Assembly: GCA_001871015.1 (NCBI GenBank)
Contig: MNUO01000062.1
Span: 1 to 8,677 of the forward strand
From: Candidatus Desantisbacteria bacterium CG1_02_38_46
GTDB taxonomy: Bacteria; Desantisbacteria; UBA1551; UBA1559
Length of the DNA stretch: 8,677 nucleotides
Direction of reading: 5' to 3'
The notes beneath the pieces are model-generated. The model was not told where the DNA came from, ran no database searches, and saw only the letters and a list, made by a program, of their open reading frames with translations. This document shows positions 3,379 to 8,677 of this stretch, piece by piece. Every line of letters starts with the position of its first letter. Positions within the stretch are counted from its first letter, which is position 1. A program made the translations under genes and the position numbers.

Positions 3379-4287
3379 ATGGTTCAAATATTTAAATGCA
3401 GGATTTTAGAAAATAGTAGGGTTGGACAAAACTATTTCAGAATGATATTTGCTGCCCCGCAAATTGCTCGAGAATCGAGAGCGGGGCAGTTTGTTCATCT
3501 GAGGTGCACTACATCTATTGACCCTCTTTTGAGAAGACCTTTCAGCATACACAGAATGGACAGGGACAAGGTTGAGATTTTATACAGAGTGATTGGAAGG
3601 GGGACTGCAGAAATTGCTAAAAGAAAAGCCGGAGAAATTGTTGATGTTATGGGCCCACTCGGGCAGGGGTTTGAAATCCCGAAGGGTGGTGAGCATAGCC
3701 GAGCCATTCTTATTGCTGGTGGAATTGGGGTTGCGCCGATGGTAATGCTGGCAGAGGAAATAAAAAAAGTCAGAGAGTCTAAGTGTCTCCAATGCTCCGA
3801 TGTTACATCGGAGATAACGGAGTCCTTCGGACAAAGAGTCAGAGTGTTGATTGGCGCAAAGACAAAAAAAGAGTTATTGTGTGAAAAAGAATTCAAGAAA
3901 TCAGGATGTGAGGTGAAGGTTGCTACTCAAGATGGCTCAAAAGGATTCAAAGGTTTAGTTACCGAGTTATTAGAGCAATCACTCACAACGCACAACGCAC
4001 CCCCCGCAAGATTGGCAGATTGCCAATCATTAACGCGGGGGTCTACGAGACGCACAACGATTTACGCTTGCGGCCCAAAAGAAATGTTGATGAAAGTAGC
4101 AAAAATTACGCAGAAATATAATATACCAGCGCAGGTTTCGCTTGAGGAAAATATGGCTTGCGGGATTGGTGCGTGCTATGGCTGTTCGGTTAAAACAAAA
4201 AATGGATATAAATTGGTGTGTAAAGATGGGCCGGTATTTAATGCGGATGAGATAGTGTGGAAAGATGAATACCAACCTGGAAGTTAA
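3379..4287 (+). CDS. pyrK: dihydroorotate dehydrogenase electron-transfer subunit, with two in-frame palindromic insertions
   Basis: PyrK is the FAD and [2Fe-2S] subunit that passes electrons from PyrD's FMN to NAD+. The FAD site is RRPFSIH (52-58), the nucleotide-domain glycines are LIAGGIGVAP (111-120), CGPKEM is at 231-236, and the cluster ligands are C261, C266, C269 and C281. The protein has 302 residues; removing two 23-residue inserts leaves 256, the normal family size. Insert A is about residues 133-155 and insert B about 205-227. Both sit just before predicted beta strands (VLIGAKT and TIYACGP), in probable surface loops, and the conserved blocks on either side rejoin perfectly without them. 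The ATG has AGGA at 3367-3370. The gene overlaps pyrD by 23 nt, consistent with stoichiometric production of the complex. The cofactor residues are intact, so the gene is probably functional. Confidence 0.95.
   Translation: MVQIFKCRILENSRVGQNYFRMIFAAPQIARESRAGQFVHLRCTTSIDPLLRRPFSIHRMDRDKVEILYRVIGRGTAEIAKRKAGEIVDVMGPLGQGFEIPKGGEHSRAILIAGGIGVAPMVMLAEEIKKVRESKCLQCSDVTSEITESFGQRVRVLIGAKTKKELLCEKEFKKSGCEVKVATQDGSKGFKGLVTELLEQSLTTHNAPPARLADCQSLTRGSTRRTTIYACGPKEMLMKVAKITQKYNIPAQVSLEENMACGIGACYGCSVKTKNGYKLVCKDGPVFNADEIVWKDEYQPGS
3768..3844. repeat. palindromic element A inserted in pyrK, with 8-bp flanking direct repeats
   Basis: AGTCAGAG occurs at 3768-3775 and 3837-3844, 69 bp apart. Between them is a 61-bp element: outer stem CTCC/GGAG (3787-3790 with 3819-3822), an 8-bp inner stem CTCCGATG/CATCGGAG (3795-3802 with 3806-3813) with loop TTA, and a 3' mini-hairpin GTCC-TTC-GGAC (3822-3832). 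Deleting 69 bp joins the surrounding codons as KKVRVLIGAK, which reads as normal PyrK. The direct repeats look like a target-site duplication. Confidence 0.85.
3984..4059. repeat. palindromic element B inserted in pyrK, with 7-bp flanking direct repeats
   Basis: CACAACG occurs at 3984-3990 and 4053-4059, 69 bp apart, with a third copy abutting the first at 3991-3997. The element has an outer stem CCCCCGC/GCGGGGG (4001-4007 with 4035-4041), an 8-bp inner stem GATTGGCA/TGCCAATC (4010-4017 with 4021-4028) with loop GAT, and a 3' mini-hairpin GTCT-ACG-AGAC (4041-4051). Deleting 69 bp rejoins EQSLTTIYACGPKEM, matching the conserved PyrK block. The order of parts is the same as in element A, though the stem sequences differ. 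Confidence 0.85.
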
Positions 4288-6476: not shown

Positions 6477-6509
6477 AAGCGTCCCCTTTTTTTGAAGCGT
6501 CCCCTTTTT
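6476..6509. repeat. two direct copies of a GAAGCGTCCCCTTTTT repeat between pyrE and alr
   Basis: GAAGCGTCCCC followed by seven T is at 6476-6493 and a second copy with five T is at 6494-6509, back to back. The reverse strand reads AAAAAGGGGACGCTTC. Motifs of this kind are, as I recall, dispersed in many bacterial genomes and often found with REP-associated Y1 transposases; no such transposase is in the window. The pair lies exactly where the ribosome binding site of alr would be expected. Confidence 0.85.
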
Positions 6510-6512
6510 ATT

Positions 6513-7700
6513 ATGTTGAAATGGGTAGAAGTGAATCTTGGGAATATTGCCTCAAATATGCGTTACATTCGCAAAACTGTGTCCAAAGAAGCAAAGGTTA
6601 TCGCTGTAGTAAAGGCAGACGCATATGGACATGGTGCAACAGAAGTCAGTAGAATCGTTCTGAAAAATGGCGCAGATATGCTTGGTGTTGCTAATATTGA
6701 TGAAGCAATGGAACTACGCCGAGCCGGAATAAAAGTTCCTATTTTACTTTTAAACTGGACAGAACCACCCCATCTTGAAGATGTTGTTAGAAATAGTTTG
6801 GCACAGACAATCTTTGATTTAGATTCTGCAAGGGTATTGTCCAGCGTAGCAAAGAAAATGAACAGGACTGTTTTAGTCCATATCAAGATTGATACCGGAA
6901 TGGGCAGGCTTGGATTATTGGCTGAGGATGCTCCGGGATTTGTGCAAAAGGTAGCAATTCTTCCCAATTTGAAAATTGAAGGTATTTTTTCACATCTGTC
7001 CGTTGCAGGAGATGAACGCACTTATAGCTTTAATCAGTTTCAAAAGTTTATGTCTGTTTTGAACGAATTGCAGAAAACCGGAATCAAAATTCCTGTTCAG
7101 CACATTGCAAATAGCGCTGCTACTCTTTTCTATCCACGCATGCACTTAACTGCGGTTCGCCCGGGGATTATCATATATGGGGTTTCTCCATGGGGTTTAC
7201 CAAAAGTAGTCCCCCCTTCTTGCTTTCGCAAGAAAGCAGGGGGGACAAAAGTAGGTACTTTGGAAGTGAAGAAGAAATGTAAGTTTCTGAAACCCGGGAT
7301 GTCTTTCAAGACAAAAATTGTATTTATTAAAGAGGTACCAAAAGGGACGAGCATAAGTTATGGCAGGACTTTCATAACAAAACGCAGGTCTTTAATTGCA
7401 GATATACCGATTGGATATTCGCACGGTTATAACAGGAAACTTTCAAATAAATCCTGGGTTCTTGTAAAGGGAAAAAGAGTACCGCTTGTAGGCAGGATTT
7501 GTATGGACCAGTGCCTGATTGATGTTAGCAGTGTGCATGGAATAAAAGTAGGAGACGAGGTGGTTTTATTCGGCAGACAGGGAAAAGAAGAAATTTCAGC
7601 AGAAGAACTGGCAAGTTGGTCGGGAACTATAGGTTATGAGGTTGTCACAACGATAGGCAGACTTGTAAAGAGGATTTATGTTTGGAAAAAAGATAAATAA
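6513..7700 (+). CDS. alr: alanine racemase, with a 15-codon palindromic insertion
   Basis: Alr is a PLP enzyme that interconverts L- and D-alanine for peptidoglycan. From ATG 6513 the protein has 395 residues. The PLP lysine is K34 in VVKADAYGHGA, GMGRLG marks the barrel, the second catalytic base is Y283 in ISYGRTF, and the substrate-site block VGRICMDQ is at about 326-333. A TTG at 6492 would add seven repeat-encoded residues, but MLKWVEVNL matches the usual N-terminus, so ATG is preferred. Neither start has a visible Shine-Dalgarno sequence: the repeats at 6476-6509 occupy that place. Residues 233-247 (VPPSCFRKKAGGTKV) are an insertion bounded by a 9-bp direct repeat, between the barrel and C-terminal beta domains; without it the length is 380 and normal. 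A role outside pyrimidine synthesis suggests read-through grouping rather than pathway linkage. Confidence 0.95.
   Translation: MLKWVEVNLGNIASNMRYIRKTVSKEAKVIAVVKADAYGHGATEVSRIVLKNGADMLGVANIDEAMELRRAGIKVPILLLNWTEPPHLEDVVRNSLAQTIFDLDSARVLSSVAKKMNRTVLVHIKIDTGMGRLGLLAEDAPGFVQKVAILPNLKIEGIFSHLSVAGDERTYSFNQFQKFMSVLNELQKTGIKIPVQHIANSAATLFYPRMHLTAVRPGIIIYGVSPWGLPKVVPPSCFRKKAGGTKVGTLEVKKKCKFLKPGMSFKTKIVFIKEVPKGTSISYGRTFITKRRSLIADIPIGYSHGYNRKLSNKSWVLVKGKRVPLVGRICMDQCLIDVSSVHGIKVGDEVVLFGRQGKEEISAEELASWSGTIGYEVVTTIGRLVKRIYVWKKDK
7201..7254. repeat. palindromic element C inserted in alr, with 9-bp flanking direct repeats
   Basis: CAAAAGTAG occurs at 7201-7209 and 7246-7254, 45 bp (15 codons) apart. The intervening hairpin has an outer 8-bp stem GTCCCCCC/GGGGGGAC (7209-7216 with 7239-7246) and an inner 7-bp stem TGCTTTC/GAAAGCA (7221-7227 with 7232-7238) with a GCAA loop and a 4-nt bulge on the left. 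An alternative inner stem is TTCTTGC/GCAAGAA. Deleting 45 bp gives GLPKVGTLEVKKK, an uninterrupted Alr linker. It lacks the 3' mini-hairpin of the pyrK elements, so it may be a different repeat type. Confidence 0.85.
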
Positions 7701-8596: not shown

Positions 8597-8597
8597 A

Positions 8598-8677
8598 TCA
8601 GGACTAAAGTCCTGAGTTACGTTGGGCAGGTCAGGACTAAAGTCCTGAGTTACGTTGGGCAGGTCAGGACTAAAGTC
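8598..8677. repeat. 33-bp tandem palindromic repeat running off the right edge
   Basis: Two complete 33-bp units (8598-8630 and 8631-8663) and 14 bp of a third (8664-8677) are identical as far as seen. Each begins with TCAGGAC-TAAA-GTCCTGA, a 7-bp stem with TAAA loop, followed by GTTACGTTGGGCAGG. The stem-TAAA-stem design is the same as in the 23-bp repeats at 361-383 and 1938-2052, but with a different stem and a longer tail. It starts 2 bases after the isomerase stop codon; no T-run makes it a terminator. Confidence 0.95.

Follow-up and report, generated by a model that had tools for sequence, protein, structure and literature searches.

Two palindromic inserts in the pyrK gene, here called elements A and B, are members of two different dispersed REP-like families, F8 and F5b. 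On the best reading, B is a GTAG-tagged REP and A is a member of a modular family of double hairpins. I give a probability of about 0.7 to the view that both are in-frame copies that were spread by a RAYT-type Y1/HUH transposase and kept by selection. The window, i.e. the whole stretch of 8,677 nucleotides that was analysed, consists of a pyr cluster (pyrR-like, pyrB, pyrC, pyrK, pyrD, pyrF, and pyrE) with alr and a TIM-barrel gene after it. The genome (G000) is a MAG of 133 contigs and 1.73 Mb with 88% completeness, and the nearest named relatives of its PyrK are all Candidatus Omnitrophota MAGs. The sole genome of the same order that was compared (G001) belongs to a different taxonomic family. 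The features are listed in Table 1.

Table 1. Positions of pyrK, of elements A, B, and C, and of their parts in the window
Feature	Position	Strand	Basis or remark
pyrK, dihydroorotate dehydrogenase B electron-transfer subunit, host of A and B	3379..4287	+	Pfam PF10418, PF00175; PDB 5ksw/1ep3 match
Element A, three-part family F8, encodes PyrK residues 137-151	3787..3832	+	Covariance model R1 match, 39.8 bits (A in training set)
A outer stem, 5′ arm CTCC	3787..3790	+	Sequence; F8 covariation, columns 1 with 41
A inner hairpin CTCCGATG-TTA-CATCGGAG, dispersed family F4 (CCRATGTNACATYGG)	3795..3813	+	F4 copies elsewhere
A spacer ATAAC	3814-3818	+	Sequence
A outer stem, 3′ arm GGAG	3819..3822	+	Sequence; alignment A8
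A mini-hairpin GTCC-TTC-GGAC; base 3822 common to outer stem	3822..3832	+	CGGAGTCCTTCGGAC exact elsewhere
A flanking repeat, left copy GTCAGAGAGT	3769..3778	+	Right copy GTCAGAGTGT at 3838-3847; imperfect pair
Element B, GTAG-tagged family F5b	3998..4050	-	Covariance model R3 match, 48.1 bits (B in training set)
B GTAG tag (plus strand CTAC)	4044..4047	-	GTAG here in 16/27 F5b copies
B outer stem arm CCCCCGC, partner 4001-4007	4035..4041	-	Sequence; outer-stem pairing in alignment A10
B asymmetric spacer, GTTAAT minus / ATTAAC plus	4029..4034	-	GCGTTWW conserved in alignment A10
B variable inner hairpin, GATTGGCA-GAT-TGCCAATC as read on plus	4010..4028	-	Compensatory changes, A10
B mini-hairpin GTCT-ACG-AGAC	4041..4051	+	4/4 pairs in 1/27 F5b copies only
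CACAACG heptamer repeats left of B	3984..3997	+	Further copy at 4053-4059
Element C, related family F5a, GTAG-T-CCCCCCTTCTTGCTTTCGCAAGAAAGCAGGGGGGA, in frame in alr	7207..7247	+	29 BLAST pieces in G000, some places split in two

Element A follows the plan of F8, in which an outer stem CTCCG/CGGAG encloses a swappable inner hairpin and a mini-hairpin starts from the last base of the outer stem. The F4 palindrome that forms its inner hairpin was found at 14 places in G000 and 22 places in G001, and at 0-3 places in each of the other 96 genomes; the reversed control gave 0 in both G000 and G001. Exact copies of CGGAGTCCTTCGGAC are also present in contig C88 of G000 and contig C57 of G001, and the string CTCCRATG..CGGAGTCC occurs at 5 places in G000 (control 0). 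The R1 model, built from seven F8 members including A, located F8 at about 6 places in G000 and 11 places in G001 at E values up to 0.03, and about 10 of the matched places are outside the training set. All three parts are readable in the R1 matches on contigs C81, C21, C111, and C6 of G001. The untrained matches on C81 and C21 have the parts in other letters, CTCCGATG[CCCCGAC-ATACC-GTCGGGG]ATACGGAG+TCCCTTTGGGAC, and that on C111 reads CTCCGATG[CCCCGAT-ATAAC-ATCGGGG]ATGCGGAG+TCCGA..TCGGAC. In alignment A8, the mini-hairpin pairs of F8 are kept in 94.9% of cells. The pair of columns 1 and 41 is CG in 11 copies and GC in 2, and the end of the mini-hairpin is also flipped in those 2. Thus, the shared base changes together with both of its partners, with the reservation that the counts are small and the controls only moderately strong. 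No unpaired GTAG lies beside the hairpin of A, and A itself is not classed as a GTAG REP. F8 may act like a REP dimer; some of its G001 copies (C6 and C111) have CTAC within a few nucleotides after the copy.

Element B, when read on the minus strand, is CTC-GTAG-A-CCCCCGC-GTTAAT-(hairpin)-TT-GCGGGGG. This is the plan of F5b: a GTAG tag, a C-rich outer stem, a conserved GCGTTWW bulge, and a variable inner stem. A BLAST search with element B alone as the query returned fragments only. The R3 model, which like R1 derives from few sequences picked by eye, found F5b at 9 places in G000 and about 20 places in G001 at E values up to 0.01. B is among the copies with an intact tag, while several others have a degenerate one (GAAG, GCAG, or GTAA). 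Pairing is kept in 94% of cells over 26 distinct rows of alignment A10, and in 93% for the outer-stem pairs, in an alignment that was fitted to the structure of the model and so favours it. All four modelled pairs of the inner stem have two-sided compensatory changes. The covariation score of F5b is 0.431, compared with at most 0.158 for slid versions, and 0 of 500 shuffles scored as high; 34 cells are changed on both sides. An earlier note, made from the letters of the window, had claimed that the paired arms change while staying complementary, and the compensatory changes in both F8 and F5b bear this out. It was also observed that three F5b copies (C77:16910, C77:48796, and C32:3611, i.e. 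L006, L005, and L106) end in CTACGAGGAGG with an ATG a few bases on, and that their GTAG end overlaps a likely ribosome-binding site.

What do these elements add to the protein? The PyrK linkers carrying A and B are 27 and 29 residues long, against about 6-14 and 10-16 residues in most relatives, and the gain over solved PyrK is about 19 and 20 residues. In an AlphaFold2 model (14 aligned sequences, mean pLDDT 78), the core is kept, and residues 137-151 and 206-222 have low confidence. The former segment coincides with A (3787-3831), and the latter with most of B. Both inserts lie between a helix and the next strand and are predicted to be disordered. Other Omnitrophota have inserts unrelated to these at the same PyrK loops, including a palindromic one (L079). 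Thus, these loops are permissive sites. The pyrK gene of G001 (L009) has non-palindromic inserts of short tandem repeats (e.g. CATCCAG and CGTACGT units) in the same two linkers.

In-frame copies of palindromes were found in about ten core genes: pyrK (two), alr, leuC, miaB, hisC, ispG, dapF, fmt, an M24 peptidase gene, and a trpE/pabB-like gene. Except for genes checked with Pfam or PDB, the names were given by eye from the translation (dapF, M24 peptidase, and trpE/pabB). Comparison with solved homologues supports an insertion in PyrK, Alr, LeuC, Fmt, and IspG; for the HisC copy, near the N-terminus, the solved homologues gave no clear insertion there. The Alr linker with element C has 27 residues, compared with 5 in 4y2w. 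In both G000 and G001, the copy in fmt occupies the same codons and has the same peptide frame (VRCPPM.IGGIRTPN.S.GEG). Thus, it most likely predates the split of the two taxonomic families, both of which have inherited this palindromic insert in a core gene. The earlier note had proposed a frame-neutral coding element. Copies do lie in protein genes, but the majority are outside genes, and the frame-neutrality is put down to selection against frameshifts.

The palindrome families of G000 often have GTAG (GTAGTGGTCGAGTTTACTCGAC, GTAGTGGCAGAGTTTACTCTGCC, and GTAGTCCCCCCTTCTTGCTTTCGCAAGAAAGCAGGGGGG), one without it being TCAGGACTAAAGTCCTGAGTTAC, and several families form tandem or mixed clusters. 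Element C in alr is followed by AAAGTAGGTAC, which resembles the start of another GTAG repeat. Some copies of its family F5a (L103 10948, L122, L126, L117, and L135) have other hairpins in the loop, and several of these inserts are flanked by CTTTCG direct repeats. The uninterrupted F5a copies represent the empty site for such loop inserts.

The earlier note had also suggested a look for a Y1/HUH or other transposase gene flanked by similar hairpins. G000 does encode Y1/HUH proteins: there are three PF01797 matches, one of them, on contig C109, intact with an HTH, and the RAYT-type protein has a Y1_Tnp domain, a DnaA-type HTH, and an HYH motif. The flanks are another matter. The two RAYT genes with readable flanks (L001 and L002) carry other inverted repeats rather than F5b or F8. 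Thus, no RAYT is tied to either family. For the TnpA-REP enzymes of E. coli and Stenotrophomonas, binding and cleavage of single-stranded REPs have been shown in vitro; GTAG is required, and the feature that is read is a bulge in E. coli and an 8-bp/3-nt hairpin in S. maltophilia (PMC8266576). By analogy, a RAYT-type Y1/HUH transposase would cut and join the elements as folded single-stranded DNA, and the same kind of enzyme may have spread F5b and perhaps F8. The survivors of selection would be the insertions that kept the frame and fell in surface loops, and these would now be translated as disordered loops. The copy number speaks against this best reading: there are about 10-20 copies per family, while REPs usually have more than 100, though the MAG is incomplete.

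The first alternative is replication slippage with template switching at palindromes, without any transposition, which I regard as rather unlikely. Short flanking repeats around A, B, and C, the heptamer tandems adjoining B, the hairpins nested in loops of other hairpins, and the non-palindromic tandem-repeat inserts of G001 in the same two PyrK loops are all consistent with it. However, whole units with tag and bulge are common to unrelated loci and to two taxonomic families. Since slippage does not copy units to distant sites, this sharing counts against it.

It is unlikely that the copies are RNA structures (leader or processing elements) that are under selection and overlap genes by chance. 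The compensatory changes in F8 and F5b fit such structures, as do the three F5b copies just upstream of start codons, where GAGGAGG overlaps the end of the tag; these copies could be kept for a role in RNA. On the other hand, the coding sequences that hold copies are unrelated to one another, and the two pyrK elements differ in orientation: the coding strand is the one on which A is read, but the tagged strand of B is the opposite one. A known structured RNA family was rejected, as Rfam gave no match for the family loci and none at A or B within the window. Similarly doubtful is the idea that F8 and F5b split from a single superfamily, so far undescribed, of modular nested-hairpin elements, in which the outer stem, the swappable inner hairpin, and a base-sharing side hairpin are recognised by shape, and which spread by putting hairpins into hairpin loops and are long-lived in essential genes.

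Very unlikely is the proposal of the earlier note that a single new coding family, frame-neutral and structure-recognised, includes both A and B as variants. It was largely refuted by a cross-test of the models (R1 has no match to B, and R3 has no match to A) and rejected by a flank test as well. In the latter, the match between the 24-nucleotide flank of A and the F5b consensus was no better than that reached by the top 5% of random 24-mers and the top 9% of hairpin flanks. The description itself was accurate: every stem, loop, spacer, and mini-hairpin of A and B is present at its claimed position, as checked letter by letter, and both elements have an outer stem, an inner stem, a TAAC-like spacer, and a mini-hairpin that begins at the final base of the outer stem. 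MAFFT did not align the stems of A with those of B, and a descriptor scan was therefore used in place of a joint model. The descriptor with all parts matched A and B alone in the 525,554 bases of G000 that were scanned, and nothing in three Markov-shuffled copies. The minus strand of A has CTCC-GTTAT where F5b has CCCNGCGTTAT, so that F8 and F5b could conceivably go back to one distant ancestor.

The common parts, though present, do not amount to a common design. The inner stems of F8 and F5b differ widely in length and loop within each family, so the shared 8-bp stem with a 3-nucleotide loop is ascribed to chance. The ATAAC/ATTAAC spacer of the two elements is normally ATRC in F8 and WWAAC (plus strand) in F5b, the ATTAAC being the GCGTTWW bulge read on the other strand. 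The mini-hairpin of B is private to B; since it is intact in 1 of 27 F5b copies, its likeness to that of A is judged a coincidence too. F5b has the GTAG tag, and A has none. The equal net insertion length did not hold up, because 69 nucleotides is the spacing of the flanking repeats, whereas the elements are 46 (A) and about 49 (B) nucleotides long. Moreover, this spacing depends on imperfect repeats for A and, for B, on one choice among tandem CACAACG copies. The flanking repeats of A and B are short stretches, partly tandem. Flanking repeats of at least 7 bp are not a family feature, being found in 1 of 33 F4, 1 of 21 F5b, and 0 of 9 F8 copies. Thus, target-site duplications, a classical trait of MITEs and ISs, were rejected as a general feature.

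Nor is the undescribed class of the earlier note needed. Intragenic GTAG/CGTC REPs that encode 20-30 residues, sometimes two per gene, have been published for Rickettsia and Opitutus, and the CGTC REPs include the Rickettsia elements RPE-4 and RPE-6 (PMC3733652). The elements described here resemble GTAG REPs and TnpA-REP REPtrons in being short, dispersed palindromes with an unpaired end that carries GTAG and in having several families per genome (PMC3733652; PMC8266576), as well as in their bulged or 8-bp/3-nt hairpins, in-frame copies in some genes, and a Y1/HUH transposase in the genome. They differ in the architecture of F5b (a variable inner stem nested within an outer stem, about the conserved GCGTTWW bulge), in the lower copy number, in the phylum (Omnitrophota), and in the RAYTs without flanking F5b or F8. 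Some, but not all, published RAYT genes are flanked by a cognate repeat as REPtrons, and others have long TIRs. Rickettsia palindromic elements also lie in frame in many genes, and uvrB of R. conorii contains two of them; compared by description rather than by sequence, A and B are distinguished by a length of about 46-49 nucleotides, by the F8 and GTAG families, and by two families in one gene. Like BIMEs, REP dimers, and REPINs, F8 resembles two abutting hairpins, and tandem or mixed clusters occur, but the two hairpins of F8 have one base in common, and nesting exchanges inner hairpins between families. REPs inserted within other palindromes have been reported for GTAG-15 of A. variabilis and GTAG-23 of T. 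roseum, where no target palindromes unlinked to REPs were found (PMC3733652). The hairpins within hairpins observed here (F8 with F4 inside, and the F5a loops) are similar, but the empty outer palindrome also occurs, as F5a without an insert.

A literature search for REPs in Omnitrophota found no paper. As far as the searched literature shows, the Omnitrophota host, the nested modular forms, the double hairpin with a shared base, and the inherited fmt copy are new. Tagged, gene-invading REPs are thus extended to Omnitrophota, in families that keep their structure while the stems change, including a two-hairpin shared base that changes with both partners. These families may be used to test how single-strand transposases read shape and how protein loops originate from mobile DNA.

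Further palindromes were observed in the window. GTAG-tagged arrays (GTCGAGTTTACTCGAC and GCAGAGTTTACTCTGC, minus strand) occur between pyr genes or ahead of them, at 1900-2060 and 300-420. At 6477-6512, AAGCGTCCCCTTTTTT is present twice; on contig C60, this motif flanks the broken gene of a Y1 transposase (L001). Finally, 8597-8677 consists of TCAGGACTAAAGTCCTGAGTTACG units in tandem, which belong to the commonest palindrome family among the sampled contigs.
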